Assembly: GCF_963675165.1 (NCBI RefSeq)
Contig: NC_087381.1
Span: 744,001-808,000 of the forward strand
Direction: 5' to 3'
DNA length: 64,000 nucleotides
Source of the DNA: Halichondria panicea
Lineage: Eukaryota > Porifera > Demospongiae > Suberitida > Halichondriidae
This document shows positions 6,625-64,000 of this stretch, piece by piece (within the stretch, counting starts at the first letter, position 1; each line of letters starts with the position of its first letter). The notes below the pieces were generated by a model. The model searched no databases. It was given only the letters and a program-made list of their open reading frames with translations, and was not told the origin of the DNA. Position numbers and translations under genes: made by a program.

Positions 6625-8487
6625 TCATACTTGAGTTTCAGCCTTATTGCTATGGTTACAGCTAACAAGTTCGTCGTCACCGTTCCCATCAATATCTATA
6701 TGCGTGTCCCCCGTCACCGCCTGCTCAGCGTCATTAATGTTCACATGCACATCTTCTTGTTCTATTTCAGTTGTTTCATCTTGTATATGGATACCGTTAC
6801 CGTTGTTAAGCCCGTTGCTAGTAGTAGGAGGTAGAGTTATTTCTACAGGTGAATTCAACTCATTTTCTTCGAATTCGTCGTTTTCCTCTCGAATATGGAT
6901 ACCGTTGTTAAGCCCGTTGCTAGTAGCAGGAGGCAGGGTTATTTCTACGGGTAAATTTGACTCATTTTCTTCGAATTCGTCGTTTTCCTCTCGAATAATT
7001 TCGCCCACTTCCTCCAACCGCATTACAGCTGGTTCCGAGAAACGCTTGAGTACAGATTTCAATTGCACGCCTCCTTCTCTGTCCGGGCTAACGGAAGTAT
7101 TGTCCGTAAACGTTACGCTTCGTCCGACTTTTTCCATTTTTTTTATTTCTCGTTTCAACACTGGTGAAGGGGTGGTGCTCTGCTGACTCGTCATTTCGTC
7201 AACAAGAACGTCCTCCGTGTTCATAGTTGTAGTGTCGAGAGCCGCCTCGCGTTTAGCCTTGGCTTTGTCTGTGTTAAAGAACCTGATGGTACGTTTGGAT
7301 GTTTTCGTTGCACCGGAATCAATGGCTTGATTGGCACGATCTAGATCCGTGTCTCGGAATCGCAATTTAGTAGTTGATTTAATGATAGCGGTACTCGCTC
7401 TTCGTATCGATTTTTTGGCCCTGGTAACTTGATAACGCAAGTCTTTGACGAAAAACGACTCGATGATCGGATGCACCACAGGATTGGTGAGATAACAGAA
7501 CCACCCGAACACGTACACACCGTCCGGAATGCTCGAGGCTACCGTAAGTCCAACAACTCCAATAGAAAATATAACAGCAATCACGGGTGTCCACGAAACG
7601 CAGTTTGCTATGCAGAGGGCACCAAATACTTTCACGAGCTGATTTTGTTGCTGCTTGTGTTTTTTGTCCTCTGCTGAATTCGTTTTCAGCTCTGCATCGT
7701 TTCTAAAAGTCTTTTTTCGTTTCAAGTTCTTCTTGAGGAATTTGCTGACTAGACGATATGTGAAGACGTTCGTTATGCCTATGATTATGATCGGAATTAG
7801 CGCCTCTAGAGCAGCAAATACGACATAAAAAAAGTTATTCACAGATGATTTCAAATTTGTACCAGTAAATCGAGGAATACAACTGCCAAATTGTCGATTA
7901 AATTCATATTGTCCGAAACCAAGAAATGGTAGAATTCCGATTATAAAACTGACAATCCACGCGATACTAATGACGATCACTGCCCGCCACAAGCTCATGA
8001 GACGTTTATAACGTAGTGGGTACGTTAGCTGGATGAAACGATCGATTGAAAGAGCAGCCAAAAGATGAAACGACATGAAGACGAAAAACATGGTGCAAAA
8101 ACCGGCTAGATCGCACACGTTGCATCGTACAATGTCCGTGTACCCGAAAATGAACTCACCACCTGCTTGAGCTACGGAGCTGAATATCATCACCGTGACA
8201 GCGACTAATAAATCGGCCAAGGCAAGATTAAACAAGAAAAGATTTCCGGGTTCTTTCAGCAGCTTGTATTTGGCGAGATATGTGATGACAATGAAGAGGT
8301 TCCAAAAGAAGGCTAGCGCGAAAAAAATGGCGTAGATTGTGGCCAGAACGGGGGCGGCGCCTTGTAGCTCTTCGGTAATCTCCCAGTGAGTACGATTAGT
8401 GATGTTGAAACTACTTAGAGTGTCAGATGCAAGACAGTTGAAAGTGACGTTGGTCATTTCGTCCTCCATCAATTCGGATCCGTTCAT
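6625..8487 (-). CDS. Class A-like seven-transmembrane G-protein-coupled receptor (620 aa)
   Basis: A single uninterrupted coding exon. The N-terminus has sequons at N2, N13, N28 and N31. Seven hydrophobic segments lie between about residues 46 and 343. Rhodopsin-family landmarks are FWNLFIV in TM1, NLALADLL in TM2, Cys near 122 and Cys203 for the extracellular disulfide, DRF at 149-151 (DRY in most of the class), AW in TM4, WTP at 299-301 in TM6, and NPVVH at 335-339 in TM7 (NPxxY in most). Loop 3 is very basic (KKNLKRKKTF). The roughly 270-residue cytoplasmic tail is long and acidic toward its end, with two near-identical copies of a REENDEFEENE/PVEITLPP unit. The ATG sits 2 nt after ccctctgcag, so an upstream 5'-UTR exon is likely. 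Ligand and G-protein partner are unknown. Orthology to any named vertebrate receptor is not supported. Confidence 0.92.
   Translation of the reverse strand: MNGSELMEDEMTNVTFNCLASDTLSSFNITNRTHWEITEELQGAAPVLATIYAIFFALAFFWNLFIVITYLAKYKLLKEPGNLFLFNLALADLLVAVTVMIFSSVAQAGGEFIFGYTDIVRCNVCDLAGFCTMFFVFMSFHLLAALSIDRFIQLTYPLRYKRLMSLWRAVIVISIAWIVSFIIGILPFLGFGQYEFNRQFGSCIPRFTGTNLKSSVNNFFYVVFAALEALIPIIIIGITNVFTYRLVSKFLKKNLKRKKTFRNDAELKTNSAEDKKHKQQQNQLVKVFGALCIANCVSWTPVIAVIFSIGVVGLTVASSIPDGVYVFGWFCYLTNPVVHPIIESFFVKDLRYQVTRAKKSIRRASTAIIKSTTKLRFRDTDLDRANQAIDSGATKTSKRTIRFFNTDKAKAKREAALDTTTMNTEDVLVDEMTSQQSTTPSPVLKREIKKMEKVGRSVTFTDNTSVSPDREGGVQLKSVLKRFSEPAVMRLEEVGEIIREENDEFEENESNLPVEITLPPATSNGLNNGIHIREENDEFEENELNSPVEITLPPTTSNGLNNGNGIHIQDETTEIEQEDVHVNINDAEQAVTGDTHIDIDGNGDDELVSCNHSNKAETQV
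6790..7010 (-). repeat. Tandem duplication in the GPCR tail coding sequence
   Basis: Two adjacent copies of about 110 nt encode REENDEFEENE followed by PVEITLPP and SNGLNNG. They differ by few substitutions, so the acidic tail was expanded recently in frame. Confidence 0.85.
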
Positions 8488-8613
8488 GTCTGCAGAGGGG
8501 GTGTGGTTATAGTGAGTGTTGTGAATATTTTACATTTTTTATATTCATGTAGCTCACTCCAGTAGTTAATATGTACACACCCATACCCCCACACACACAC
8601 ACACGCACGCACG

Positions 8614-42817: not shown

Positions 42818-45305
42818 ATGGCGAGTGCACTAAGCTGGCTGGTTTTGGCTGCTCTAATAACTCTGGGCTCCTCTACACATTGTGAGTTTAATTAATTATC
42901 AGTATAAAGCTTGACTTAGCTATATAATTATTGTATTAGCAGAGTTTTGCGCTACAGTAAAATTCAAGGCACTATCTAATTCCAAATATAAAGCTGCGCT
43001 TGTGTTGACAATCATATTAATTTCCCAAAAGAAGTGAACCATTTGTTGGGCGGAGTCCAACCAACGCTGCGCTCATGGTTGGGTACCAGTACATTTGTTT
43101 TACTGCAAGAAATGTGCAGCCCAATCAGATAGCTGCGTTCAAGTGGGAAACCTTACAGCTCAATTTAGCTGACAAGCTGGGTCACTGTATTTCTCCAGAA
43201 AATGCAGAAAACAGCTCCTGCTGCTGGATATCTATAGGCTACTAGAAAAGAAGCATAGTCTATCTTAGCATCTATATGAATGAAGTTTGAACAGTAGCAT
43301 CTTTGTTAATTGGGACTTGTCTTTGTTTGTTTTGTTCAGCTAACAATAAGGACAAAACCTCTGTTATAATTATGTGCATTATTTGGTCTCGAAAAGATTC
43401 TTCAGAAGCCTTGTGGTAGTCTTATAGCTGGTTGTACCTCTCCTTGTGCTAGATGTCTGAACTGAAAAGTTTATTTTTGCCTGTACTAAATCTTAGGCTA
43501 CAGTATTCTTTTACTTTCTCTAAGAGTTCTGGGGTCTTTCTTGAATTCCAAAGCAACTATAGCTCAGCTAGCTAGCTGGACAATAGCATCCCAGATAGCT
43601 AATTGTCCTGAGCCATGCGGTTGTCAGCCACTTAAGATTAAATAATAATTTTTATTCATACTCGGTTTCAAGTACAAGTCGAACTTACTGCTACGTGTAG
43701 TGTACTGATACCCAACCCAGAGCGCAGCGTTGGTTGAACTCTGCCCAACTAGTGAACCATAGCTTCCTAAAGTGTTGCCTTAGCCTTAAAAATGAGTTTT
43801 TTAGCATAATTATAATGAGTTTATTTGTGTGTATGTTGCTGTATACGAGATTACCATAAGACATTGACCCTACAAATATTAACCTCCTTCACACTCTCGT
43901 TAATCCGGTTACTCTTGGAAACAGTGCAGCTTGGCCGGAATAGCAAGGTGGCTGTATTTCAGCAAATAGCCTCGGCTTAAAAACAACCTTACCTCGAATC
44001 TAATAACTATTTGCGGTTCTTGTCTCGAGGATAATGAAGGAATTCTGCTCTCTCTCTATTTAAGTTTTATCGGCCAAACCACACCCAAAGCGTCATATCT
44101 GGCCATATAATAAAATTACATTGTAAACTTAGTTCGGCCAGGGGCGTAGCCAGGATTTTGAGGAAGGGGTGCTTTCACTGAAGAAAGAGGGCGCAAAGCG
44201 CCCGATTTTTAGCTGCGCAGTGTCGAAATTTGGTTAACCGGAAGCCACACCTCTTATTTATGATGCCGTAATTAATGGTTGGGCGTGGCCCAATCTTCTT
44301 TTTGCATAGAGAAGCCTATTTAGCTACGAAAGAGAACTACCGTAAAAACTCAATTTAAAGCGACACTTTTAAATAATTACGTTTTGCAAAAGTATACGGT
44401 TTTAATGTACACAAAAAAATGAATTTATATGGTGCTATATGGGCGAAATGCCAAGTGTCGCCTTAAATCGAGGTTTACGGTAGTCTATAGATCTAAAGCT
44501 GACAGTTTAAAGACCAATTCGTTTTGCTTGTATACTATTATATAGCTAGCTAACTGCAGCAAGATCTGGAAGAGAAGGGGGTGCTCAGCTAGACAATCAG
44601 GTACACTTTGTGTACAATCTCAGATAGAAAGGGGGTGCTTGAGCACCATGAGTCCGGCCTCCCCTGGCTACGCCCCTGGTTCCAGCACTGGCCAGTAGCT
44701 ATACGGAATAGCGAGTGGCCGTCTTCTGTTCAGGGTGGTATATCGAGGTGGCTGTACTTCAGAGAATCCGAATAGCGATAGTCTACTGTATTTTCTTTCG
44801 GATAGAGTCAGTAGCAGTAGTAGATCTATTATAGTAGTAGACTTTCACCAAGGTGACTATATTGTGGCAAATAATTATATATCAGGAAAAACGCACATTT
44901 GCCACATGCACTCTGCGTCAAAACCACACATTTTTTTACAGTAAAGTACAGCCCAGATGGCCGTGACCCATTCACCGTGGGCCACACCCATCTAAGAGTA
45001 ACCAGCTTCTTAGGTACAATCGTTATTGTACATTGATCTCTTGCTGCATAGCTATGATCACGCCCGTTGACCTGCATGTGGAGGCTTAATTATAGCCATC
45101 TTGTGTTGAAGAGCACCTTCCGTGATTTTGCCGTCAGCTGAGCTAGGAGTCTTTGTACTGTCAAGTATGCCGGCTCCTTTCTAAAAAAAAAGCAACTTGA
45201 AAACCACCTTGAAATCTGTGCATATCTGCATGGGGCTGTATGCTATTAATGCCTCGGTGCGCATAAATTATACGCAAGCGAGATTTACCATTACAGTAGT
45301 GTGTT

Positions 45306-45361
<56 letters not shown>

Positions 45362-48300
45362 TAGACTGCCCAAAATGTTTGTCATGATATAATGTGTGTA
45401 TATTATTGCTAATAGCTAGTAGATGTTATGTAGCTTGACACCTCCACTGCATGAGGCATTAACACTCGCGGTACTTTCATTATTCTATATATCCTACAGC
45501 TATTCTTGGAGACCTGAGGCTAGTAGATGACTTATTATTAACGGACGTCTCCGTTGGCATCGCTCAAATTTATAATGTGGGGCCTAGCTGGGACCTAGTG
45601 TGTGGAATAGATTTCACCCCAGAGAATGCAATTGTGGCTTGTCGTGAACTAGGGTTCTCAGACTACGATCAGTACGGATATACTGGAGCTCTAGGGTGAG
45701 TATCATGCATGCATGTATGCGTGTATGACTAATTTGCATACAGCTGGTGCAATAATGGACAGGGCTGCATCTAAGATTTTAGATCGGGGGGGGGGGGGGC
45801 GAAAATTGGGCAAATGAAAAATGTAGGGGGGGGGTGAAATATCCCCCTCACCCCCCCTCAATGCAGCCCTGATGGGTATTTTATTGCTGGCCATAAAACG
45901 TTTAACAGGAGCAAAGGGGGAGGGAGGGTTAACGGTTTGATTTGGTATGGACAGTGCTGTTATATAGCTAGAGTATTGCTGACTCAGCACTTTACAACCC
46001 TCACAAAAAAACAAGTGTAGCTCCGCTTTGCAGGGTCGCCTGATTCTGGGAAAATTGCTCCACTCTGTACTGCACTCTATCTAGATTGTACTCAGCTTGT
46101 GTCAGTCAGTTAGCTCTATAGCTATGGAGTTTGGCAAAAACGGGGATCGGTGCGTTCTGGCGCAAATCGAAACATTTGGTAGTTTTTTCAAGTTATCACT
46201 GCTCGGACTGGAAGCGACTTGACCTATCCAAGTTTTCGCTGGATAATAGGCCCATGGCCATCTGTTAGTGTATGTAATTAGTTTGAATCAGTCTTGTTTT
46301 GTTTGTGCGTTACACGCCCTTTTACCTGACGCACTTTGATGTCTGATGGAGTTCGGCGACTTACTCTAGCATGCAGCTTTAATAAGTCATAGTACGCATG
46401 CCTAGGAAACTGAAGGTGTGGTCTTCAATGAGTATAAAAGCTAGCTCTAGCTCAGCTAACTTCATAGTGCAGTGCAGGCTCAGCTTCCAGCTATCCAGTA
46501 TAAGTTACAGTAATTAATGTAAAGCTTAAGGGAGGTGCTTGAGCACCCTGAGCCCCTAGCTGGATACGCCACTGTTTAATTTTTATAAGCGCACCCGGAT
46601 AATAGGCGCATAGAGGTCTGCTCTTTTCCCTATATGCATGCGCTTACTAACCACGGTATGCTTTATATAGCCCCGTTTACACGACACCTAATCCGGGTCG
46701 AATCCGGATTGAATCTGGGTCAGATTTTTCTGAGTAGTGGGCATAGTAAAATGACCACTAATTTCATTTGCGCAAACATTGGACTGATAGGAAGCTACAG
46801 GCTTACTCTAGAAACACCCACGAACATGTACAACACCTCAGAATTAGCCCTTTGTGCTTACTCACAGCTAAACCGCTTCTGACACAATCTGAACCACCTC
46901 CAAAGGTGGGTTGGCTAATCCGGATTAGAACCCGGATAAGGGCCATTTACACGAACGCGGTTAGGTTTAATCCGGATTCCAACCCGGATTAAAGGCCTCG
47001 TGTAAACGGGGCTTATGAGTGGGTAAATCCCCTTATTAATTGGTATTTAGCAAGGCCTCTGTCCTTCCGGTAGCAAAACACGTCCTCTTTGAACTTATTT
47101 ATTCAGCCCAAATTTTCCAATTGGATGGTATGTATCCCTGTCCTCTCTATATTGGCTCAGCGTTAATATTGTCATTTCTCCTTATACATGCAGTTTCATT
47201 GAACCATCTAGCCCAACTGGAGGCGCCTTAGCCTCATTTCTGTACAGGGTTGCATGCGTAGGAAATGAGAACAGATTAATTGAGTGCCCTCTTGAGAATG
47301 GTGATGCAACTGAGCAGTGTCCTGCGTCTGAAATTTTAGCCTTGGCCTGCACTGGAAATAAAACAAGTAAGTTGTGACACATGCACGAGTGAGCTTAGAG
47401 AGTAGATTACCACACATTTGTGAGTAGCTGTACTTAAATGTAAATATCTTTCGATTGGAACATTTCTAAGAAATGGTGTTGATACCAATGTGTATAGGTG
47501 AATGACCAAGCTACAACATACTCAAAAGTGTTTCCATGGAAACATAAGGTGGTGGATTTATGGTGATTAATAGAACAACAGCAAATTGTTATAGTGGGTA
47601 ATCGGTTAGAGTAATAAAACAGTAATCTTGATTTATAGACACTGTGAACATATGTAAGACGCATAAAGGGATGGTTAGGATACCTAAACCATTGAACAAT
47701 TATGTGATGAAGTCTAGGACCTTAGCTGTACAAGATTACTGTTTTATTACTCTAACCGATTACCCACTATAACAATTTGTTGTTGTTCTATTAATCACCA
47801 CAAACCCACCACCTTATGTTTCCATGGAAACATTTTTGAGTATGTTGTAGCTTGGTCATTCACCTACACATTAATGTGTAGGTGAATGACCAAGCTACAA
47901 CATAATTATATTGTGCTGATACCAATATTGGTATCAGCACAATTTCTTAGAAATGTTCCAATCGAAAGATATTTACATTTAAGTACAGCTACTCACAAAT
48001 TTGTGGTACAGTAGAACCTCGATTATCCGGACACCTTGGTTCCAGAAGCAGGCCGGATAAGTGAATATGCTGGATAATCGAATAGATAAACCACGCCTTG
48101 ATCCACCCACTTTATTGATGAACAGCAGTGCCACATGTTGTCTGCGCATGCGCAAAAGAAAAGCAGGCATGTCTCCATGGTAACAGCTGCAACGCGCATG
48201 CGCATTTGAGGGACACGCCCATTTTCTGAATTATGTAATCTGATTAAAAAGAAAACTGCCAAGCCGGATAATCGAGGTTCCGGATAATCGAGGGCCGGAT

Positions 48301-51300
48301 AATCGAGGTTCTACTGTAATCTACTCTAAGCTGGATGCATTCTATACCAATTACTTTGTAAAGAGAAAGTTTGCTAGAGTAACATATATTTTGTTTTGGC
48401 AGTAGGGAGGCCTATAGCTAGCTATAGCTAGCTGTAGCTTATTGACCTATATGCGTAGTAAAAGTGCACCTTCAGCTCAATTAGCACTCGCCCACAGATG
48501 GTTATCACCATGCACTTAGCGGTTTGCATAATTTGCAAACTTGTACGAGATGCGATTCCCAAGGTAAGACGCTCCTTCTGTAATGTACTCCTGTTAATAG
48601 CCATTAATTATGCTTACATCAGGTAAATATACTATGCGTGTTTAGGCACACTTTTTTTAGATCACCTCTCTACACTGTATGTCCCTACAATGCTGACACT
48701 ATTGATCTCCCTATAAGAGACCAGTGCACCTTTCCATGCCGTTATATCCACACACGCGCACGCATGCACACACAGGCAGCAGCACAGATGGAAATGTGAG
48801 ACTGGTTGGTCGCGATGGCCATGCTAGAGGAAGTGGTGGGCGTGTGGAAGTATCTTTTGGGGACGTGTGGCACACCATTTCTCAGAACTCAATCACAATT
48901 CAAGATACAGACGTCATTTGTCGACAGTTGGGCTTTCCAACTAGCTTGTATCATGGCATTGTGGAAGATTTGGGGTGAGTAATGGAGTACATGTGCAGAA
49001 TGAGCTCAAATACATTCAGGGAAGTGCCCAGTACACTGGTTGGTATTATCCTCCAGACATAAATAACCACATTTTAGGTGGCAAATTTGTGCTTTGCAAT
49101 TAATTTGAGGATTAAAAATAAAGCCACCACTTAATTTTAGACATAGAAATAGTAGCTGCATGTGCTTATTATGTTTACACCAAAAGTTGTATAACTTTAA
49201 AAGAAAATTGTGGACGTAGAGCTCTATAAGATGGTGTGCTTAAATCACTGTTTGATCGGCTCAATAAATTTGACACAACCATATACATCTGTGATCTTAC
49301 CTACATGCATTGCACGTACACAGATATACTGGAGAAGCCATTCATGTGTTTAACAGTCTTGGTTGTAATGGGTCTGAGAGCAGAGTGTCCGACTGTCCAT
49401 ACACCATTAGCGTATTAACTTCATTCAGCCTCCTGGCAGTGATGTGTGGCGGCACACGGTACAGCCAAGGAAGTGAGTGTATGTAGTAAATTTTAGATTT
49501 GGTTAATTTCATGCCTATAATCACATTTATACAGGCTTCCTAATACTAGAGAGGTAGTATACCTTTATCATGCGGCCTAAAAGCTTGTACATAATTGTTA
49601 TAGCAGTAAATACTGAATATACTCTCAGTTGGAGAGTCAGGGCCTATAGAGGGTGACATTTGACTCAATACTGATGGTGATTCTCGTCCGTTGTCTGGTC
49701 GACTGGAGATCTATATCAACAACCAGTGGGGGACAGTCTGTGACAATGGATTTCAACAAGCTGAGGCAGAGAGGGCTTGCAGACAACTTGGGCTTCTGGG
49801 AAATCTTTATTATGGCAACGTTGGGGACCTTCGGTGAGCTACTAGTAAACACAGTGACTCCTGTCTCTATAATTATGGTTACCCTGTTACAGTGTAAGCA
49901 GGCCACCCTCTATAATACAGCCTAGTTATTGGGTCCGAAAGTATCTATAGCATGTAGATTTAGTATAGCTACAGACAGAAACATAAATCTCTATCTGTAG
50001 GAAAAATATGAGGCATCCGTATAAAGTACGTATAATAATGTATATAATCCTGCTTTCATGCTGCTAGGATAAGGTCAGGGGATAATTTTACAGCTGTGAT
50101 ATTATTTTCCCAGACATGTTTGGTACAAGATCATGTAGATATATGTGATAGTACTTAGGAAAAGGGCCCTTAACGCGGCAATAATTAAATTAAGCTATAG
50201 GCCAATTTAGTAGAAATGAAAAACATGGGCAAAAAAATTTTTTTTTCACAGGTGCTAACTTCAACCCTTCCTCTACCTACCTGTAAAAATTTGGGTCTCT
50301 ACGAAGCTTTAAACAGGTCAAGCGCGGACGTTGAAGAAACTCACCTAACGTTCATTTTTTACAATGAAATTTACTGTCTACATGAGGGGAAATTCCCTGG
50401 GAATTTCCCTATTATTGTTAATTATTTTTAACAAATAAAAGATGACAACTTGTACAGGACTATTTCATCAGCCCAGTACTTACAATCATCAAGAGGAGCC
50501 AGGTATATTATAGCTCCACTTCTTAACAAACATAATTTAGCAACAGAAATAGATTAGAAAGAGCAGCTATCTAGCTAGCTAGCTTGGCGCAGATCCACTC
50601 ATGTTTCTTTAGATGTACGTATCCCGTGCCACTTGTCCTCATAAACACTCCATAACAACCTACAGATAAGTAGTAAGTTAAGACAGACACAATATCAATG
50701 TCACTTACATTCTAGCCAATAGACTAGCGTTTCTCAGGCCTCCGACACTTACCACCACCTGGGGGAACCATCAATATAAATGTTATACGACAATTCCACG
50801 CAGTTTCCTGGGCCCTCCATGATGTGATCACCCATCCCATCAGGCCTGTTACTACTAAGCACAATGGCAGTGATACCAGTACTAAATTAAAGGAGGAAAG
50901 CTTCTTATAAGGCTACTAATAAGTTGGATCAAGCCTTAGATAGATATGGACGAATACTAAGTGAAACACTACCTATAATAGATCACTTAGGCTTCCTTTA
51001 AGTTGTATGAAGGACAGAGACACTTCTGTAGGCTCCATACAAGTGAGGGATCTTTTATAAGACTGATACATTACACAGATAATAAGTACAAGCTTATAAC
51101 AAGACATGAGAGCTTACCATTCGAGCGACGGGAGCCTTTGTCTCTTTATTTCTTCGAAGATCCTTCCTAGGTGCCAAGCAATCCAGCTACATAGCTATAC
51201 TAGCTAGCTAGAGAGTCCTAGAACGCCTAGCCTTCATCTAACTAACTTGTCTTCTCCAGAACATCTTTTACGAAGCTTTATGAGTATACGGAAGTGCCCG

Positions 51301-54300
51301 GAAAGCAATAATTGAACTTCAATTATTCATGACGTTTGAGCGTTGTTGCAATACTTTCGTAGCGTTCCCTCGAACATATCTCCGGAAAGAAAGTAGCTAG
51401 GAGGTCGATCTTGGTATCATTTTGAAGCTTAAAGGACGCTCTATCCGATTCAACAATAAAAACTGATTTGAAAATGCCCGCGTTAAGGGCCCTTTTCCTA
51501 AGTACTATCACATATATAGATAATTTTGCCTACTGTTGTATTTTTTAATTTGTGCACGCTAGGATGTTTAGTTGCTTTTTTTTGTACTGTAGCTATAATT
51601 ATAGATATAGTTTGGTACAAAGATAGTGTCACTATTAGTGAGGCACTTGATAAGAGAGCTGGTCGTTCCTATTCTCAAGCTAGAGCTATATAGTGCAGTG
51701 CATGCAGGTGCAAGTGGGAGCCTTGGCACTATACGCACTGTCTGGCTCCAGCTCTGTGGGTATGGGTGGATATTTAGCCGTTTGTGTGGCTGTAGTTTTA
51801 GAGGAGGAATCAGGCAGGGCTCAGAGTGTTTTGCTGTCCGATAAATTAGAAGGTATATACGGTAGCTAAATTTGTTTTGCACGTTTTGCATTTAATTCAG
51901 TAGAAGTTGGTAAAAGATCATTTGTACAGCCATGCACCCACTTATTATAATACTGATTGCGTGCGATATCACTTTAGATAGCTAATTCTACCGACAGAAT
52001 GCAACAACACTTTTAATTAAATATTTGTACAAAAAGCAAATGCGTGGCCGTTCATGACACACGCACATACATTGAACACTATATAATTATATAGGTAAGG
52101 GACTCGCTTCGCTTGACCCAATAAAAGTTTTTACATCAGCTGTAGACATAATTCACAAACAACTCCCCCCCACATTCATGCATACAGCTTTGGTCAAGGT
52201 GTTGGCCCCATCTGGATTGATAATATCAACTGTAATTCATCAAATCAGACTCAGACTATTGCCCAGTGTGCCTCTGGAGCAGCAATTGCATGGTACCCAG
52301 ATGTGTACCCACGGTGATGATGTAGCACTGGTCTGTCTTGGAGGTGCGTGTATATACGAAAGAGGGATGGAATGTAATGCATGTTAGCCTGTGTACATTT
52401 TATGTACTCTTGGTAAAAAAGAATGCTCACAATTCTTACTGACGTACGTATGTATATAGAGCAACCCTTTCAATATAATTATTATGAGCAGGCCTTCCGT
52501 TTCCATTCCGTTTGTATACAAACGTTTTTACGGTGCGGAACGGGAATATTTATTTTAGGGATACTGTAATCGACTTATTATAAGGTTTGCATTTCAATTT
52601 TGAGCTAGGTGAAAAGTGCATGTGCATGTACATGTATGTCAAGAGTTAAGTAAACGCCCGGGTTGCATTGAGGGGAGGGGAGAGGGGGGTATTTCACCCC
52701 CCTGGGCACAGTTTCAACCACCCCTATAGGATCTGGCAGATTTTAATAGGCATTTGTACTGCTGATGACTACACCCCCCCCCCCTTTCATTTTCCCAATT
52801 CTCCCCCCGGCCCCTGATCCAAAATTCTGGATGCAGCCCTGAACGCGGAAACGCATTTATCAAACTCTACGTCATCACAGTTCAATTTGGGACGTGTTGC
52901 TAAAATAACAATGATGCAGATTTGGGCAAATGTCGTGTTACTCTCAATTCAACACTGTTACTCTTATAAGTACTCTTACTTGTTAATGCAAATTAACTTA
53001 AATTGCATGGTCAGACTTATGTTAGTAGCAATTGTCAGAACTTTTGTTTAAGTAATCATTTTGCCAGATCTATAGTGTCATAGATTTTCCCTACACTGCA
53101 TGTAGAGGGCTCTGTGCGACTGAGGTCTATTATTGGAGGGCTGGGATCAACGGGTCGGAACGTGTCTACTGGTCTACTGGAGGTGTACGCTGGGGGTGAG
53201 TGGGGGACCGTGTGTAATGACCTGTTTGACCAGACGTCAGCTGACTTTGTCTGTCGTCAAATGGGATATTCTCCTTTAAACGCCTTTGGCAGTGTTACAT
53301 CGTAAGTTATGTACATGTATAGGTATACTAGTTTGTAATACTTTTAAGCTGCCCTAACTGTGCTAATATGCCTTTCAGCATGTTTGCTTCGCTCAAGGAG
53401 TGTATTATAGAGAGGTCATTAGTTTGCTTTGTATATACATTAATTTTACAAAATATAAGTTTGCATTTGCAATTTGTTGACAATGAACAAATAATTTTTG
53501 AGCAACGAGTAATGTAACTGAAAGAGGAGCTTAACGAAACAGAAGTCTAAATGGCTATAGAGGTATAATCTTCAATCTTCAAGGATGTATAGAAGCGTAG
53601 ATCTCTAGGGTCTGTATTAGACATAATTTAAGTGAACTTAGCAAGCGTTAATCACGTCGCAAAAATAAAATCAATAAAAATGGCTGTATGGTGGTAGTTA
53701 CAACACGATATATATAATTATGATTCTTGCCACAAGGCATACTACATATAGTTAGATCGCAAAGGGTCAATTTTCATGCTGGTTTGGCTTGTTTTTTTCA
53801 CCTGCAAAATATTCTAGTATAGATAGATGCATGATAAGAGTTTTAATTTATGGCGTTGTTTTGACATTGTGCGTTTCTTGTTAAGTGGATCTGTAAAGAG
53901 GTCAGAGTTCACAATGCATAGCTGCTGCATTCTGGCAGTACATCTTTACAGCTCTTTTTTGACTCTTAAGCTTGTAGCTAACAAACAGCTAGCGCTTTAG
54001 TGCGGCTAACTCATAAGTTAAATAGAAAGTTTGTGCAAACAGATGATGTTATGAAAGACTCTGAACAGACTGCAACAGCCTTCACTGCAAATAAAATTAG
54101 CCATAATTCTTTACTTTGCAAATCCACGAATCAAAATCCAAGAGAACGTGGTTAGAAGTCTATAAAAGCTGTTATTTGCGTTGCATTGAAACCTTTGGGC
54201 AGTTATATATAGCTGGAATAGACAAGACACACACACACGCACAGTCAGCTATTATACTGTATCCCTCCTGTGACTGATGCTAGATTGGAGACCACACCCT

Positions 54301-57300
54301 TTCTTTCCTGCAGATCGAGCAACCTGTCGATTCTATTGGACAATGTTCAGTGCACAGCAAATGATGACTTTCTCCTCCTCTGTAATCACACCGGTATCGG
54401 GTCACACAACTGTAGCAACTCAGACCTGGAGTTGTCCTGTAGTGAGTCTACCTCTATATACAGTAGCTTAACATGCAGCAGCACCTACCATCTATGTGTA
54501 CAAGCACATACATACATTTGGCGAGACTGTGTGAAGAATCAAATATAGGCCAAGTGTCGTATCACATTCATGTTTCAAGAGTAAACAACCGATTATCAAA
54601 AATAGAACGTGTGGATAATCGGTTGTTTACTCTACATGTTTCAGGTGTTTTCAAGCTTTTTCGTTTAAGGATATGTTATTCAGCTTCATATTAATCTGCT
54701 TACTACTTCACTATACTTTTCATACATAGCAACTTGTCTCTCGTTGACTGCCCCTGATGATGGTAGCATATTATCGTATGACCCGGCTGCTCTGGCCAAT
54801 GGCGAGTATGGTGTGCGCACGATAGCCACGTTCTCTTGTGACACTAACTTCGGTTGGTCGGGATCCCCCAACAGCACGTGCGTGGGTGACAACACATGGT
54901 ACATCGAACCCATCTGCTATGGTAAGTATAGTCTTGAAATGGCATTTACGTTGCACTCCTGGTTGAATATAAAGATAATAATAATTATTTTCTTCCCACC
55001 GTAAATAAATATTACCAATTTTCTGATCCTTGTGATGTGGCATACATTTAATATGACTGTCTGTACAATACGTGGTTAAGGTATATCACATACACTCTCA
55101 GAATTCATTGTATGTACCGTATAAACAAAACGTGCACACACAAAACGTTAGCTTCACATGTATACAGCTGCCTATATTGATTCACTAAACTTGTTCATGC
55201 ATAGCAACCTGTCCCCCGTTGACTGCCCCTAATGATGGTAGCATATCATATGACCTGGCTGTTCTTAGCAATGGCTGGCATGGTGTTGGCGTAGTAGCCA
55301 CGTTCTCTTGTGACACTAACTTCGATCTGTCGGGATCCACCACCAGCACGTGCCAGGGTGACCACACATGGGACAATAACGAACCCACCTGCCAACGTGA
55401 GTAGTCTTGAAATGTCATTTATATTGCACTCTGGGTTGAGCAATAACGAAGGTGACGTTTTTTTTCACCATAGTACATAGTACCAATTCTGATCCTTGTG
55501 ATGTGTAATGTATGACTGTATACGTACAATAGAGTCGGCAATGAATATTTGAGCCAATCAATTATCGGACAAATCTACAGGAGAGTTGGAAATCAGAAGT
55601 GGTGCTCTCACAGACAATGGCCAAGGGTTAATTTTCCTTGTCTGAAGTATAGAGCTGCTCAAACCAAAACAATGTAACTTCGATCAAAACAATCAAATCG
55701 ACTGTCTAATAGAACTGCTAGCTAATAGGGGGAGCTGCAACTTGATACTGTATATTGATAGGCTCGGCTACATGTGGCACTTTAACATTTTTCCATTGGC
55801 CTCAGCAATCAATATTAAATCATGCTTAATTATAGAAACCCCCACAGCTAAAATATTTTGTTTTTAGGAATTTTACGGGAATTACAAGATTTCACTAAAA
55901 TAATAATTCACCGATATTTCGTCTGATAATTTATTGGCCCAAACATCGATTACTGACTCTACGTGGTTAAGGTATTTTATTTACTGTATCCTAGCTAGGC
56001 GATGTCAAGTATAATTAATAATTACTTCCCTCAGGCACTATTCTTACTTCCTCAGCAGATTTGATATGAAGCATCTTGACAATGTGATACACACAATGAA
56101 ATTGAGCTAGCTAACCATGTTCATGAGGCCTGCAGTAAAATTCTTGGTCTGTACTTTCTAGTCAAGGCTGTGGCTTAGAGGTATAGAGGATTACAAGTAG
56201 ACTGTAGTGTTGCCGACTAAGACTTGACTGAGGAGGTAGACTAGTTTAAACATAAGCAAACTGCAGCAGCTGCATAGTGATGGGCGGGTCTGGTCAAAGT
56301 TTATTGCTTCCAGCTGAACCTATACAGTACAGTGTAGATAGCTTAGCTAGTTTGCTAAGCTAGCTAGCTCTACTATACCTGCAACTATTCTAACTGCATA
56401 TTATGAGGCTGTGAGAGCAAGCTTGGCTGTCTCCTAATGTTCAAATGACTGTTTTGCTATTTTTGCAGTAAATAAATCAGCCTGGGCGCGCGTAGAACTA
56501 TTTAAATACGTATCATGTACACTTTCAGAATTCATTGCCTGTACATATCCCCATGCTGTAAACAAAACATTTAGCTTCACATGTATACAGCTGCCTTTAT
56601 TGATGCACCGATTCACTAAACTTGTTCATGCATAGCAACTTGTCCCCCGTTGATTGCCCCTGATGATGGTAGCATATCGTATGACCTCGCTGTTCTTAGC
56701 AATGGCGGGTATGGTGTTGGCGTAGTAGCCACGTTCTCTTGTGACACTAACTTCGATCTGTCGGGATCCACCACCAGCACGTGCCAGGGTGATAACACAT
56801 GGGACAATAACGAACCCACCTGCCAAGGTAAGTAGTCTTGAAACGTTGCACTCCTGGTTGAATAATTATAAAGATACAATGACAAAGGTGCCACCGTATA
56901 GTACACATGAATAAATACTGATCCTTGTGATGTGTGGCACACATTTAATGCATGACTGTCTGTACAGTATGTGGTTAAGGTACTATATCACGTATACACT
57001 CTCAGAATACATTGTCTGTACGTATCCATACTTTAAACAAAACGTGCACACACAAAATGTTAGCTTCACATGTATACAGCTGCCTATATTCACTAAACTT
57101 GTTCATGCATAGCAACCTGTCCCCCGTTGACTGCCCCTAATGATGGTAGCATATCGTATGATCTCGCTGTTCTGACCAATGGCGGGTATGGTGTTGGCGC
57201 AGTAGCCACATTCTCTTGTGACACTAACTTCGATCTGTCGGGATCCACCACCAGCACGTGCCAGGGTGACCACACATGGGACAATAACGAACCCACCTGC

Positions 57301-58477
57301 CAAGGTAAGTAGTCTTGAAACGTTGCACTCCTGGTTGAATAATTATAAAGATACAATGACAAAGGTGCCACCGTATAGTACACATGAATAAATACTGATC
57401 CTTGTGATGTGTGGCACACATTTAATGCATGACTGTCTGTACAGTATGTGGTTAAGGTATTATATCACGTATACACTCTCAATACATTGTCTGTACGTAT
57501 CCATACTTTACAAAACGTGCACACACAAAACGTTAGCTTGACATGTATACAGCTGCCTATAATTATTGATTCACTAAACTTGTTCATGCATAGCAACCTG
57601 TCCCCCGTTGACTGCCCCTAATGATGGTAGCATATCGTATGACCTCGCTGTTCTGACCAATGGCGGGTATGGTGTTGGAGTAGTAGCCACATTCTCTTGT
57701 GACACTAACTTCGATCTGTCGGGATCCACCACCAGCACGTGCCAGGGTGATAACACATGGAACAATAACGAACCCACCTGCCAAAGTAAGTACAGTAGAG
57801 GGGGCCAATTTAAAGTTTGTGTTCCGTTTGCGTAGATAGCTGATTATTGCACGCAAAAGCCCATTTCCGCCTATATGCACGTACTATTATATATATGCTG
57901 TGGTTTTGGTCTTGGTGCATGTACATTCAACACACTATTGCAAGCTTCATTGCACATGCACCAAAACGCGATTGTTTTGCTTGCTTGCAAAACAAATGCA
58001 GAGTACTACGCATAAACTTGGCCTCTACTGCAGTCTGAAATTGAATTGCTTGAAGGTGAAGGCATGAACATTTTGTTGCCTTGCCAATAATGACAATGGT
58101 GCACGACATAACATAGTCATCATACATATACTGTCCCTACAAAGCTCACACTATTGCATGACCTCCCTAAAGAGACCATCTTTCCATTCCTTCATATCCA
58201 CACACACATGCATATACACACACACCCAGCCAGCAACTACAGTTTCTTCGTTGTCTATGCCCCTCAGGGTGTCATACAGGATTTTGAAGTAGAGGGGGGA
58301 AATTAGGAAAGTAACCAGAAAATGTTGCTAAAAAAAGGTCAACTGTTATTTCAATACCCAGCTATATGGACACTCAGTCATAATTGAAAGGGGGGGGCCG
58401 GGGAATTGGAGCTATAGGGGGAAGATATCCCCCTTCCCCCCTGTATGACACCCTGCCCCTGCATTCCTTCATATTCT

Positions 58478-58508
<31 letters not shown>

Positions 58509-61500
58509 GATATAACAGTGAGCACTGAAGATGAAAATGTGAGACTGATAGGTCTCGATGGCCATACTAGAGGAATGGGTGGGCGTGTGGAAGTCGATAT
58601 AAATAGTGTGTGGTACACAATCTCCGTGACCTCAGCCACGCTTCAAGATACGGACGTTATTTGTCGACAGCTGGGCTTTCCAACTGGCTTGTATTATGGT
58701 AGTGTGGCAGATTTGGGGTGAGTATAATTATATACATGGATGGAGTCAAGGGTAGATAAAAGTATTGACCGGTGACATATCGTCGTCCTAGATAGTAGTT
58801 ATTCTAACAACACTTTCAGAAACCCCCGCACATGCTGATTGCGCAGTGCCTGATACAGGTCAGTTAAAACCATGCATGCACAGACCACATGCAGTTTACT
58901 CACAACGCTCAGTGCATGGTGTTTCTAGGAAATGTAGTTGGAGGGTGCTGAGAGCATGCGAAGATGTTGACACGCACCGAAAGCCACAACGTTTTTAAGG
59001 TGTGGTCTCAATCTCTAGATGTGCATGCAAAAGCTTTAGCTTTCAATCTGAATGCATGCATGTAGCTATAGTGCTGCTCACCAGCTCCCGGATAAACAGT
59101 TAGCTTAAAGCCCATATAGAGACTGAGATTATATAGTCACAAAATTAGAGTTGTTGCTGCACTTGCCTTTGTTTTAGCTGGATACGCCACTGACGCTAAA
59201 CAGTGCATGATGGCTTGAGTTTAGCAATGCGGTTCTGCGTTTACTATAGCAGTTCAACACTCTCACTCTTATCTGCTCTTGAGTATAATTATAGTATGAG
59301 CTCGAAAGCAGTCAGGGATGTGCCCACAGCACTGGTCGGCACTACATATTATAACCACCTCTACATAGGCAAAAACCACCTTTAAGCTATATGTGACAGG
59401 CTCTGGGAAAACCAGACTATTGGAGCAGGCTAAAATTTTGGTGATTAATATATCAAATGATAGAACAGAGCATCGCCTAGACAATGATATGCTTAGTGTT
59501 TACATACCTAGTTTCATACCCGAGTTATGCGCATTAGAAACTCGAAGCCGTAAAATGTAGTATCGAGAAAAACGCCTCTCAAAGATTGCTCAATTAGGAA
59601 AAATACGGTAATAGCAAAAGTTTGGACGAAGCGTTTCGATGGAAAGAGTTGGATTTAGAGCATCAGATTTTACAGAGAGGTAGTAGAAGGACTGCAGATA
59701 CTTATACACCAATAACATTTTATTTGAGATTTTATACTGTATAGGCATAAATTTAGCTGTAGCTAGCTCAATACTAAATTCTGCTCCAATAGTCTGGTTT
59801 TCCCAGAGCCTGTCACATATAGCTTATATACCACATACTAGGTGGACAATTATGTGTGTGTGTTGAGGATTGAAAGTATATAGCCCCATCAAATATTCTG
59901 ATGGATTTCGGTTCTTATTTTGACAACCATACGTTGTCTTGCTTTACCATGTATACACAGATATTATACAAGTACTTCTACTCGTGTGGTCAGCAGTCTT
60001 AGCTGTAATGGGTCTGAGAGCAGAGTGTCCGACTGTCCCTACTCCTTATTCCCTATTAACATAGCCGGTCCATTCAACTATCTGGCAGTGTTGTGTGGGG
60101 GCACACGGTACAGCCAAGAAAGTGAGTTTTGTGGGGGCTGGGGGAGAGCATCTGCTAAGTTTTTCACTCCAACATTTCTAATCACATTTTACAGTTCTGT
60201 ATAGTCCTAAAACTAGATAGATCTTGTGTGCTTGCATTATTTTAATTACAGTTATCGTCTGCATGCGGCTTATACATAAAAATGTACGCATGCAGCAAAT
60301 CCTTAATGTACACTCTCAGGTGCTATAGAGGGTGACATTCGACTCAACACTGATGGTGACTCTCGTCCGTTGTCTGGTCGACTGGAGATCTATATCAACA
60401 ACCAGTGGGGGACAGTCTGTGATCATGGATTTGAACGAACTGAGGCAGAGAGGGCTTGCAAACAACTTGGGCTTCTGGGAAATCTTTATTATGGGAACGT
60501 TGGGGATCTTCAGTGAGCTAGCTATAGTGAATTGTGGTTGCCTTGTGGGCAGACCATGCATCTTCTATAATACAGAGGGTGTTCTCTAGTAGTTCGAAGA
60601 GGTTCGGAGGGGTCGAACCACAACGAACACCTGTAGAACACCCTCTCCAAGTGTTTACAGTCATGCAGGTTATTGGGCCCTATAAAGTCTCTGTTGCATT
60701 AGAAAAAGCCACCTCGTTGATATTACAGCCACTGTTGTTCTCCCCAAGGATGACTACCGTATATATAGTGCGAAATTTTCGCTGATTTCGTGGGTTAACA
60801 ATCCTACACGAAAACAAAGTCCACGAAAATTGTTTTTTTAATTAGAATTATCTGCTATATAACGTGCAAAGATTGAAGGTATGGCTTCTGGTAAGCATGC
60901 AGTCATTCCACGTGCAGCGTAATGATGCTTTTTTAGAGGCCATTCCACGAAATAGCTATAAGTGTCTCGAAAATTTCGTGCTATACGATATACTACATGT
61001 ATATCTAAACAGGTTTCACTGTACAGGGATTAAGTTCACATTATGTTTGCTAATAAACATAAATAAAGCTTTTTTACATTCAACTGTAGTCTGTAGCCAC
61101 AATTCACAAACAACTCCCTAATTCCCCCCATTCACACCACACACAGCTTTGGACAAGGTTCTGACCCCATCTGGATTGATAATATCAACTGTAGTTCAGA
61201 ACCAAGTCAGACCATCGCCGAGTGTGCCTCTGGACCATTTGGTGTCCATGACTGTAGCCATAGTGATGATGTAGCACTGGTCTGTCTTGGAGGTGCGTGT
61301 ATATAAGAAAGGGGAATTCCCTTACATGTAGCCTTAATTATAGCGGGTATAATTCAAGGGTGTAAATGTTCGTGGTTTTATTTTCGCATGCATGTGACTG
61401 CGAACATTTATAACTACCGTATATCTTCTAATTTATCGGACAGCAAAAAATAATTATTTTGGAAATTGTCCGGGTATAATTGGAACAGGTTTTTATAGAG

Positions 61501-64000
61501 CATGCAAAGTGTCCGGAATAATTAGAACAAGCAAGCAGCTGCATGCGAGCTAGCTAAGTTTAATAGAACAGTGTACGACTGAATAGTTGCACTAGCTATC
61601 TAAAACTAGCTCTCAAAGCTATCTAACTGCAGCACTCTAAGTCTTACTTGCCGTCTATGAATGAAACTCAACTTTTCAAGGGTATTGTCCGGATATTTAG
61701 AACAAATGTAATATTAAAGCACTGGAGAGTCCGTTGTATTAGAACAACGAAAATTTCCCAAAAGAGTGTCTGGAGTAATTAGAAGTGTCCGATAAATTAG
61801 AAGATATACGGTATATCCACGAATTTAATATGCTGCAAAAAAGGCTGCTTGTTCCGCGAAAACCTTTCTAACGGTCTTTTTGCGAAAGTTTTTATACTCT
61901 TTATATATAATACATATATAATTATATAGAGTAACCCTTTTTAACTCACTTGTAATATTTAAATGGTGCATGTGTATAGAATAGTGACCTATAGTAATAA
62001 TTTATACCGTATAGCAGGTAATTTTTGTGGGGTAAAAAATTCGTTTATCTGGAAAATGGTGGTTTTCGTGAGTAAAAATTTCGGTTAGTCTCTCTCGTTG
62101 CCTGCCTGTCCTTTCCCCACTGAAATTGAATACACCTTCAACGCACATACTTGCTTACAAATCTCATCTGCAATTAGGGTAATACATGTGTACATTTTGG
62201 TTTGAAACTCACCATGTTCATCAACTTCCTTCAACACAGAAGAAATCCCTTTTGCACTGCATTTGTACGTTCCGGTAAGCCACACCTACGTTAAAATTTT
62301 GTGGAGGTCAGCTTGCCCACGAAAATAACGAATTTTTTACCCAACAAAAATTACCCGCTATATACGGTAGTGGTTAATTGTGCAAGCATGTTACGTTGCA
62401 TGTGTCATCCATTTTCTCTACACTGCATGTAGAGGGTTCCGTGCGACTAAGGTCTAATGGAGGGCTGGGATCAACTGGTCAGAACGTATCTACTGGTCTA
62501 CTGGAGGTGTACGCTGGGGGTGTGTGGGGGACCGTGTGTAATCACCTGTTTAACCAGACGTCAGCTGACCTTGCCTGTCGTCAACTGGGATATTTATTTT
62601 CAAACAGCTTTGGAAATGTTACATCGTAAGTTACGTATGTGTACGGTACTAATTACTAGCATGTATGCATACAGTCGTATAGGTTTATAAGTTACTCTGT
62701 GAGCAGCCACTTTTTTCCACTTATAAAGAAAGAAAGAGGCTGTCCTTTAGTGGGAGATTAAATATCACCACAATATTGGTGCCATATTAGAAAGGTCCTT
62801 TACTGGTAGGAAATTATATGACCGAAGATTTACTATGATATAAAGCTGTTCTCAAATCAAGTATGCTTGCTTAAGTAGAATTGGGTCGAAAGCAGCAAAA
62901 AGCCCCTCTGCAATTGGACTTCCCTACAAAATGTTTTTGGCACTTGCATGCTCTAATATTTTTCCTGCAGATCCAGCAGCAGCCTGCCGATTCTATTGGA
63001 CGATGTACAGTGCACAGCAAGTGACGAGTATCTCCTCCTCTGTAGTCACAATGATATCGGGTCACATAACTGCAGTCACTCAGAGGACTTGGAGTTGTCC
63101 TGTTCCTCTGAAGCTAGTGATTCAGTATCTAACAGTGAGTCACCATTCAGCTAGGGGTACATCGAAAACCAGTTCCTTTCTTTTGGGAAAGGGAATGTTA
63201 AGCTATTTATCACGGAGTTGTCCCAGCGGAATGCAATCCACAAATTACGTAATGCGTGGGTGGAAAACATTCAGACTCGAGTACAAGCCGCCATAGATGT
63301 GTTTGTAATCGAGGCTGGTAATTGTGTGTGTGCGTGTGTGTGTGTGCGTGCGTGTGTCTGTTCCAGCTGTAACTGCTCAACGATTGCAATGCGACGAAAG
63401 CTAACAGTTTCTAGCCACGTTCTCTTGGATTTTGATTCCGTGGATTAGCAAACTAAAGCTTCTTTCTCGAGTTATGGCTAGTTTGACTTACATTGAAGGC
63501 TGTTGCAGAATCTTTCATAGCGTCATCTGTCCGCACAAACTTTCTATTCAACATAATTATGAGTTAGCCTTGCACTAAAGCGCTAGCTTTTTGTTAGCTA
63601 CAATACTCACATTCCCCATGTGTGAGAAAATGATAAGCTAACTTTAATTAATATAAAATTCATTATAGAAACTAATAATTATAACACTCTAATAGTTTTG
63701 AGCGAAAGCAAAAACATGGGGAGAGGCATTAGCACAGCGCCAGCTTGAACACTAGTTATTATAGTATACTGTGACTATATATAACACATAAGTCAATGGC
63801 CTTCATTCTAATCTTCTAATCTTCAATCCAATTCTGCATTTAACTTTCATTGTACTAACAATGTCTTGCCCACCTCCCCAAACACACAATAGTCGGTGTT
63901 ATAGTGGGCGTTTCCACCGCTGTCCCTCTCATTCTTATCATCTTGTTTCTCGGCACCGGCTGGGCTCTGTGCCACTTGTACTACTACAAGAAGACTGGAT
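42818..64000 (+). CDS. SRCR/CCP multidomain transmembrane receptor (3' end outside window)
   Basis: Signal peptide MASALSWLVLAALITLGSS, then SRCR1, a linker, SRCR2-4, CCP1-5, SRCR5-7 and a transmembrane helix (VSTAVPLILIILFLGTGWAL) followed by HLYYYKK. Exons: 42818-42881, 45500-45695, 47194-47366, 48498-48563, 48776-48974, 49324-49472, 49641-49833 (nonsense), 52188-52343 (frameshift), 53106-53301, 54314-54441, 54730-54921, 55205-55396, 56636-56827, 57113-57304, 57594-57785, 58510-58717, 59961-60121, 60320-60512, 61147-61292, 62433-62625, 62971-63134, 63893-64000+. Each SRCR is split over two exons (phases 1-2-1), as in group A SRCR genes; each CCP is one 192-nt exon (phase 1-1) with four Cys and one Trp. 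Sponge SRCR/CCP proteins have been proposed as aggregation-factor receptors; a role in cell recognition or scavenging is inferred. With exons 7 and 8 included, translation stops after residue 289. Without them the frame is open to the window end. A split into two genes is possible but the phases do not call for it. Confidence 0.88.
44139..44679. mobile_element. ggggcgtagccagg-type MITE containing a second MITE
   Basis: The outer ends ccaggggcgtagccaggatt and ctggctacgcccctgg are inverted. The flanking interior has ggggtgctttcac on the left and ggggtgcttgagc on the right. An unrelated element sits at 44338-44483. In receptor intron 1. A partial relative lies at about 46528-46575. Confidence 0.88.
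44338..44483. mobile_element. MITE nested inside 44139-44679
   Basis: The left end taccgtaaaaactcaattta and aagcgacact is mirrored by agtgtcgcctt and aaatcgaggtttacggta. About 146 bp. Confidence 0.87.
45299..45361. repeat. (GT)n microsatellite
   Basis: About 60 nt of GT in receptor intron 1. Confidence 0.95.
45760..45871. mobile_element. Short MITE, cagggctgcat family
   Basis: The left end cagggctgcatctaagattt is mirrored by aatgcagccctg, enclosing G-rich and C-rich tracts. Relatives at 52669-52841 and 58265-58455. Confidence 0.8.
46670..47012. mobile_element. MITE with gccccgtttacacg ends
   Basis: The left end gccccgtttacacgacacct is mirrored by cctcgtgtaaacggggc. The interior is rich in aatccggatt / cccggatt repeats. 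343 bp, in receptor intron 2. Confidence 0.88.
47411..48003. mobile_element. Large palindromic (foldback) element
   Basis: The left arm (47411-47634) and right arm (about 47729-48003) are inverted copies: cgattggaacatttctaaga versus tcttagaaatgttccaatcg, and ccgattacccactataac on the right. The right arm holds an extra small palindrome (ttaatgtgtaggtgaatgac; gataccaatattggtatc). Same family as 15700-16345. In receptor intron 3. Confidence 0.9.
48009..48316. mobile_element. pogo/Tigger-like MITE with TA target duplication
   Basis: The ends cagtagaacctcgattatcc and ggataatcgaggttctactg are inverted, with TA on both sides (48007-48008, 48317-48318). The cagt...cctcgattatccg end is typical of pogo/Tigger-type Tc1/mariner relatives. 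308 bp, no transposase. It abuts the right end of the palindrome. Confidence 0.9.
50139..51518. mobile_element. 1.38-kb element with ~40-bp terminal inverted repeats
   Basis: The left end tatatgtgatagtacttagg and aaaagggcccttaacgcgg is mirrored by cgcgttaagggcccttttcc and taagtactatcacatata. The two short ORFs inside (about 50216-50431 plus, 51323-51511 minus) match no transposase I know. It separates the two exons of the broken SRCR3 module. Confidence 0.88.
51834..51864. mobile_element. Solo end of the taccgtatatcttctaat family
   Basis: gtccgataaattagaaggta followed by tatacggta matches the right end of the complete element at 61413-61813. No partner end is seen nearby. Confidence 0.6.
52669..52841. 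mobile_element. Short MITE, cagggctgcat family (diverged)
   Basis: gggttgcattgaggggaggg on the left, ctggatgcagccctg on the right, enclosing complementary G-rich and C-rich tracts. Confidence 0.65.
53640..53822. mobile_element. Diverged MITE, taccgtattactagaat family
   Basis: Keeps gatcgcaaagggtcaatttt, ctggtttggctt and gcaaaatattctagtata. Left end degraded. In receptor intron 9. Confidence 0.6.
53977..54155. repeat. Dispersed repeat, inverted partner at 63415-63605
   Basis: aatccacgaatcaaaatcca and aatagaaagtttgtgcaaac here correspond, inverted, to tggattttgattccgtgga and gcacaaactttctattcaa there. Both copies lie in introns of the receptor gene. Confidence 0.8.
54730..57785 (+). repeat. 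Tandem array of five CCP/sushi exons (CCP1-5)
   Basis: Five exons of exactly 192 nt at 54730, 55205, 56636, 57113 and 57594. CCP2-5 are nearly identical (ATFSCDTNFDLSGSTTSTCQ), and the intron just before each carries tgtatacagctgcct and cttgttcatgcatag. CCP3-5 are spaced about 480 bp apart, introns included. CCP1 is the most diverged (ATFSCDTNFGWSGSPNSTCV). The intron before CCP3 carries an extra ~950 bp. Confidence 0.95.
58265..58455. mobile_element. Short MITE, caggg(c/t)g(t/c)cat family
   Basis: cagggtgtcatacaggattt on the left mirrors cctgtatgacaccctg on the right, with G-rich and C-rich tracts inside. Just upstream of receptor exon 16. Confidence 0.8.
59385..59824. mobile_element. MITE with ~45-bp near-perfect terminal inverted repeats
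   Basis: agctatatgtgacaggctct continuing to gggaaaaccagactattgga, mirrored by tccaatagtctggttttccc and agagcctgtcacatatagct. 440 bp, in receptor intron 16. Confidence 0.92.
60754..60992. mobile_element. taccgtatagcg-family MITE (gcgaaat subtype)
   Basis: The left end ctaccgtatatatagtgcga mirrors cgaaaatttcgtgctatacg on the right. Interior nearly identical to 20481-20712. In receptor intron 18. Confidence 0.85.
61338..61911. mobile_element. taccgtatagcggg-family MITE interrupted by another element
   Basis: The left part, tatagcgggtataattcaag to gcgaacattta, and the right part, tccacgaatttaatatgc to gcgaaagtttttatac, are the two halves of the 10592-10801 type. They are separated by the complete element at 61413-61813. 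Confidence 0.85.
61413..61813. mobile_element. Nested MITE, taccgtatatcttctaat family (~400 bp)
   Basis: The left end taccgtatatcttctaattt and atcggacag is mirrored by gtgtccgataaattagaaga and tatacggta. The interior repeats gtccgg.ataattagaac motifs. A solo end of the family is at 51834-51864. Confidence 0.9.
62003..62369. mobile_element. taccgtatagcggg-family MITE, long version
   Basis: The left end ataccgtatagcaggtaatt and tgtggggtaaaaaattcg is mirrored by cgaattttttacccaacaaa and attacccgctatatacggta. Interior related, inverted, to 17549-17763. In receptor intron 19. Confidence 0.88.
63415..63605. repeat. Dispersed repeat, inverted partner at 53977-54155
   Basis: See the partner entry. 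This copy is in the intron before the transmembrane exon. Confidence 0.8.

Follow-up and report, generated by a model that had tools for sequence, protein, structure and literature searches.

We analyzed a 64,000 nucleotide (nt) stretch of the genome of the demosponge Halichondria panicea (RefSeq assembly GCF_963675165.1, contig NC_087381.1, positions 744,001 to 808,000, forward strand), referred to as the window, which carries on its plus strand the gene model of a receptor with one broken SRCR module, named M3. The model consists of 21 exons and encodes a signal peptide, four SRCR modules, five CCP modules, three further SRCR modules, a transmembrane (TM) segment and a short tail. Splice sites are canonical throughout (20 of 20 introns are GT...AG), each SRCR module is formed by two exons, and the second exon of M3 is the only one in the model with a frame-breaking length. 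The features are as follows, with positions counted from the first base of the window:

42818..42881, plus strand: signal-peptide exon (MASALSWLVLAALITLGSSTH), start of the gene model, with a phase-1 GT donor, recognized by paralogy to the neighbouring gene
45500..47366, plus strand: SRCR module M1, exons 45500-45695 and 47194-47366 (Pfam SRCR 3.7e-10)
48776..49472, plus strand: SRCR module M2, exons 48776-48974 and 49324-49472 (own profile)
49629..49833, plus strand: first exon of M3 (exon 7), with an in-frame TGA (Pfam SRCR 2e-11 for the part after the stop)
49661..49663, plus strand: the TGA codon, CGA in the three closest paralogous exons (paralogue alignment)
50139..51517, no strand assigned: transposon-like element of 1.38 kb with 40-bp perfect terminal inverted repeats, in the intron between the broken M3 exons
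52188..52343, plus strand: second exon of M3 (exon 8), 156 nt, out of frame (paralogue alignment)
53106..54441, plus strand: SRCR module M4, exons 53106-53301 and 54314-54441 (Pfam SRCR 1.3e-20)
54730..57785, plus strand: five CCP/Sushi exons, each 192 nt (own profile; Pfam Sushi 3.4e-12 for the fifth)
58510..60121, plus strand: SRCR module M2', exons 58510-58717 and 59961-60121 (own profile)
60320..61292, plus strand: SRCR module M3', the intact in-gene paralogue of M3, exons 60320-60512 and 61147-61292 (Pfam SRCR 1e-21)
62433..63134, plus strand: SRCR module M4', exons 62433-62625 and 62971-63134 (own profile)
63893..64000, plus strand: TM exon and start of the cytoplasmic tail, running past the window end to a TAG at 64093-64095 (extended coordinates)

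SRCR exons are abundant in this genome, with at least 213 matches in the 131.5 Mb searched (39 contigs, the window lying on the one designated C5). Pfam was used for M1, M3', M4, the remaining piece of M3 and the fifth CCP, while M2, M2' and M4' rest on our own profile. At a cut-off of 26.1 bits for SRCR (PF00530), M1 scores 40.5, M3' 77.6, M4 74 and the piece of the broken M3 after its stop 44.5 bits; the in-frame part of the M3 second exon (42 amino acids, aa) has no Pfam match at E 0.01. SRCR domains of group A are encoded by more than one exon and contain six cysteines. M3', with two coding exons and six cysteines in the inspected translation, fits this group. Both SRCR blocks probably belong to one gene, because the exon phases match and neither a TM-like open reading frame (ORF) nor a usable new signal peptide lies between the blocks. 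No TM-like ORF was found in 54442-58509. Two genes instead of one were also considered, and the sole signal-peptide-like ATG with a phase-1 donor in 49473-58509 (at 49812) lies out of frame inside M3. The absence of an intervening TM-like ORF or signal peptide supports, but does not prove, a single gene.

The modules M2, M3 and M4 form copy A; copy B (M2', M3' and M4') lies in the same gene, copy C in the next gene downstream, and a fourth copy, D, on the opposite strand. The three closest paralogues of M3 are M3' (60320-60512), the C copy at C5:812994-813179 and the D copy at C5:655906-656091. In the SRCR frame, codon 49661-49663 is TGA, and it is CGA in all three closest paralogous exons (B, C and D), where it encodes arginine. 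The sequence-only reading, made earlier from the letters of the window, had reported this difference for the paralogue at 60320 and attributed it to a C to T change at a CpG; both observations hold. The CpG depletion of the window (observed/expected 0.63; TpG 1.24) fits a CpG transition as the origin of the TGA. The same reading placed the acceptor of exon 7 at 49641, but the acceptor shared with the paralogues (ctctcag directly ahead of the exon) gives a start at 49629, 12 nt upstream and in the same frame.

The second exon of M3 measures 156 nt versus 146 nt in the three closest paralogues. A net insertion of 7 nt had been proposed for it: the frameshift is real, but the exon is 10 nt longer, of which 3 nt keep the frame and 7 nt shift it, the latter aligned at 52282-52288. 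Substitutions crowd around this insertion. A transfer of the cluster from another module was considered, but the search revealed no donor, as the 29-mer at 52289-52317 is unique in the genome when up to 3 mismatches are allowed. Among 150 exon-7-type matches scored from 702 candidates, 149 are free of internal stops, and the only one with a stop is the M3 first exon itself. In the corresponding search for second-half exons (150 of 472 candidates scored), the M3 second exon aligns over just 30 of 49 residues, and one stop-bearing exon occurs elsewhere; it lies at C1:2327136-2327264, has an internal TGA and is the only one among the 150 listed. Such counts of stop-free exons give a biased rate, because intact copies score higher in these searches. 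Judged by the paralogue alignments, both lesions of M3 are derived, because the three closest paralogous modules are intact at both sites. M3 thus carries a derived stop and a derived frameshift that are absent from three of three closest paralogues, and in this sense it is a disabled module. The acceptors and donors of both M3 exons are intact and like those of the intact paralogues.

Since the lesions were read in one assembly only, they might represent an allele of a single individual, i.e., polymorphism of the receptor array, or partly an assembly error. CpG transitions are common polymorphisms, and individual-specific expression has been described for most pattern recognition receptor genes of H. 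panicea, SRCRs included, in PMC8242945. On the other hand, the change in exon 8 is no homopolymer slip, as it comprises 10 nt and clustered substitutions and its 29-mer is found once in the genome at up to 3 mismatches, and two independent lesions in one module are improbable as sequencing errors. A search for sequence of a second individual with one exact 27-mer gave 0 matches in each of two other collections (viral contigs and genome contigs). Taken together, we consider an allele or error unlikely.

As assembled, the model stops after 271 residues, and not after 289 as had been calculated for a short form of the protein. Between the TGA and the exon junction that follows it lie 170 nt. According to the exon-junction rule, a stop well upstream of a junction marks an mRNA for decay, and the TGA-bearing mRNA would, therefore, be a decay target under this usual rule. 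It is conceivable that the truncation is used for a secreted protein of 271 residues, as the signal peptide and two complete SRCR modules lie upstream of the stop and TM-less SRCR isoforms are reported for WC1 and CD163 in PMC2681482, or that the TGA is read through. However, the stop is placed as in a standard decay signal, its codon encodes arginine in the three closest sisters, and ribosomes reading through would still meet the frameshift of exon 8, so that readthrough was rejected as a rescue; both possibilities seem to us the least probable of all. The same frameshift would be met from alternative acceptors past the TGA: three candidates are phase-compatible (exon starts 49737, 49761 and 49770), and none of them avoids it, although an acceptor restoring the frame had been named as a possible refutation of the broken module.

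Two ways of splicing around the stop leave an open frame. Exons 6 and 9 are compatible in phase, and a transcript lacking the two M3 exons is, as had been predicted, open over 1110 residues. Omission of exon 7 only, with 49472 joined to 52188, was overlooked in the earlier reading and gives an open frame of 1162 residues, because the insertion makes exon 8, at 156 nt, a multiple of three. The in-frame skippability of M3 is weak evidence in general, because each of the remaining six SRCR modules is likewise an exon pair with a summed length divisible by three, and because exon 7 can be skipped alone. Further, nothing visible forces skipping, as the splice sites on both broken exons are undamaged.

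A receptor of 1162 residues lacking exon 7 alone would contain a half-module of 52 codons, which begins out of the SRCR frame and regains it for approximately the last 18 residues. Its open frame was directly computed, and the corresponding skip-frames of B and C run into a stop about 10 codons beyond the insertion site, so that the insertion carries this frame onward. However, half of the frame-breaking indel lengths would give the same effect by chance, for which reason we treat the openness as coincidence. Moreover, B and C already have most of this exon open in the skip-frame, for which no use is known, and in D a stop precedes the insertion site. The resulting protein would contain half an SRCR fold composed mostly of unrelated sequence. 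Regular use of this transcript is, in our view, very improbable.

The intron between the two M3 exons harbours the transposon-like element, for which the ORF list contains no reading frame of at least 85 aa. Matches to it of 93-98% identity, 3 of which are partial, exist at no fewer than 40 further genomic positions (40 scored from 237 candidates). The corresponding introns are much shorter, approximately 634 nt in M3' and 350 nt in M3''. The element may have disturbed the splicing of M3.

For estimates of selection, a branch model was applied to 286 codons of M2, M3 and M4 in the four copies, leaving M1 out; stop codons, length-variable columns including the inserted stretch, and exon ends outside the aligned cores were dropped before the counts. 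The omega tests cover few codons and their p values are uncorrected. Copy A has an omega of 1.34 versus 0.59 for the rest (p 0.018), and the data for A do not reject an omega of 1 (p 0.34), whereas omega is below 1 for B (0.36, p 0.004) and C (0.28, p 0.006). Constraint is not detectable across the first block. The contrast of A to the rest persists, with p 0.013-0.020 across the three possible trees and p 0.013-0.019 for M2 and M4 alone. Private nonsynonymous and synonymous changes (rounded counts) number approximately 25:6 in A versus 13:15 in B and C together (Fisher p 0.008). Within M3, changes are concentrated in the second exon, with 13 in 28 codons versus 4 in 41 in the first (Fisher p 0.001, changes treated as codons). 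In M4 of copy A, residues are in common with D and synonymous sites in common with C. Among the CCP modules, CCP1 compared with CCP2-5 gives an omega of 0.83-1.32, and the difference between the exons of CCP3 and CCP4 (10/192) at least matches that of their introns (9/269). For the first exon of M1, the comparison of A with C gave 0.74 at a dS of 0.68, and this value was not used. Besides, the cytoplasmic tail ends early at the TAG at 64093-64095 (extended coordinates), without the long PPAPYP-rich part and the PPTY end that are kept in C and D. The tail region of the C copy lies at extended 71070-71681, and tail-like matches are widespread in the genome, mostly on C1, C5, C12 and C17 (40 matches).

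Our leading explanation, with about an even chance of being correct, is that one receptor copy of a tandem SRCR array has recently decayed in the course of birth-and-death turnover. In its favour are the three sisters free of both lesions, the single stop among the 150 first exons scored, the branch-model and private-change results for A, the CCP1 values, the early end of the tail and the sea urchin precedent described below. The ancestral module would have had the state of its sisters, without a stop and with a second exon of 146 nt. Copy A would then have acquired the CpG transition to TGA in one exon and the frameshifting change of length in the other, either of which alone would end the receptor ahead of the CCP modules, the second SRCR block and the membrane anchor. 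The broken exons are expected to be included in the transcript, because their acceptors and donors are intact. Most likely, the copy would thereby lose its function, via a degraded mRNA or a stub of 271 residues with two SRCR modules, and would represent one death in the turnover of a large array in which intact sisters remain. Loss of function, the fate of the mRNA, the order of the lesions and a link to redundancy by duplication are what we infer here. The sequence-only reading had offered a dying gene, a dispensable cassette and a short secreted form side by side. Since the lesions are real and derived, the first two are live options, with a mild preference for the dying gene; the secreted form is the least likely, owing to the decay signal.

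Several results weigh against a dying gene. The other 19 exons of the model are free of disabling lesions, and two random lesions would fall into the same module in approximately 8% of cases by chance; their clustering hints at dispensability of the module rather than of the gene. The excess of A comes mainly from M4 (omega 7.5, p 0.0025 versus the rest, p 0.012 versus 1), which might reflect diversifying selection acting on a receptor that is still alive, or else mosaicism among the copies. In contrast, neither M2 (0.94, p 0.51), M3 (0.94, p 0.28) nor the second exon of M3 (1.48, p 0.09) differs significantly from the rest, and with M2 and M4 only, the Fisher test of private changes gives p 0.050. 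The intact copy D is also compatible with an omega of 1 (0.79, p 0.33; private changes approximately 29:17), so a neutral-like omega alone is no mark of a dead copy. On the A branch, the first exon of M3 has an omega of 0.18, with 1 nonsynonymous change, 2 synonymous changes and 1 stop in 41 comparable codons; because it shows so little private change, the stop is recent and the rate of block A largely older. Finally, the pairwise omega of CCP2-5 is 0.23-0.36.

These results bear on the alternative that M3 is a skipped relic, in effect part of an intron, with 49472 spliced to 53106 in a receptor of 1110 residues comprising six SRCR modules, five CCP modules and the TM segment. M3 would be free to decay because it is redundant with M3' in the same protein. 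Such a receptor is open end to end, its 19 exons are unbroken, both lesions fall within one module, a young transposon lies between the two M3 exons, and the later block B is constrained (omega 0.36); WC1 provides a precedent, as PMC2681482 describes both SRCR sequences with stops or frameshifts and splice variants lacking domains. On the other hand, the splice sites of M3 are still like those of intact paralogues, skipping in frame is a generic property of the other six SRCR modules, constraint is undetectable across the first block rather than in M3 alone, and the constraint on block B may be older than the lesions. We regard this as a possible account, about half as probable, and gene death is favoured over silent skipping of the module. 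A narrower version, in which the transposon entered first, constitutive skipping reduced the receptor from seven to six SRCR modules, and the lesions followed in what would be an intron-resident fossil of a working receptor, appears rather doubtful. In its extreme form, the 7-nt insertion would have been retained because it keeps exon-7-skipped transcripts in frame.

Some further observations were made in and around the gene. The signal-peptide exon and its counterpart in the neighbouring gene (C5:808909) share 88% identity across 85 nt. M2-type modules lack a first-half cysteine in all four copies (WHTIS, WYTIS or WYTVS versus WGTVC in the M3 and M4 types). CCP3-CCP5 (56636-57785) arose by recent tandem duplications including introns, the CCP3/CCP4 repeat being 95.5% identical over 709 nt. 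In the intron between M1 and M2, a large inverted repeat (47408-48008; arms of 82 and 144 nt, approximately 96% complementary) is possibly a fold-back element. A GT/AC microsatellite of more than 500 nt (extended 66205-66740) lies just upstream of the first SRCR module of the C gene. On the minus strand, 6625-8529 contains a single-exon G protein-coupled receptor of the rhodopsin family (Pfam 7tm_1, 5e-38, 611 aa).

The loss of M3 is a real but ordinary derived event in a tandem receptor family. It presents a clean case of domain loss in a multi-domain receptor, since both the gene model itself and the gene next to it contain intact sisters, and adds to the known turnover of SRCR genes without changing the picture. 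Comparable events have already been published. In its architecture, a membrane receptor of SRCR and SCR/CCP domains with an anchor, the gene is like the putative aggregation receptor of Geodia cydonium, which combines SRCR domains and short consensus repeats (SCR) according to the review PMC4557014; this likeness concerns the architecture of the gene model. Sponge SRCR genes in tandem arrays share a common exon structure and expanded by tandem duplication, as PMC10855680 describes. The tandem genes studied here likewise have a common exon structure, but they use two exons per SRCR domain, whereas mostly three are reported there for the sponge studied. The same article reports the sea urchin SRCR gene LOC586908, which lost a domain via a TAC-to-TAG stop. 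As in M3, one of two paralogous SRCR genes thereby lost a domain by a single base change creating a stop; in contrast to that gene, M3 is located in the middle of its gene, and each of its two exons bears a lesion of its own. For bovine WC1, PMC2681482 describes SRCR sequences outside and inside the genes that were classed as pseudogenes or intron owing to stops and frameshifts, and whole SRCR domains are commonly missing from WC1 splice variants. The broken M3 resembles this case as a sequence bearing a stop and a frameshift within a multi-SRCR gene. However, WC1 is a mammalian group B family in which skipping is seen in cDNA, whereas M3 is known from the genome alone.

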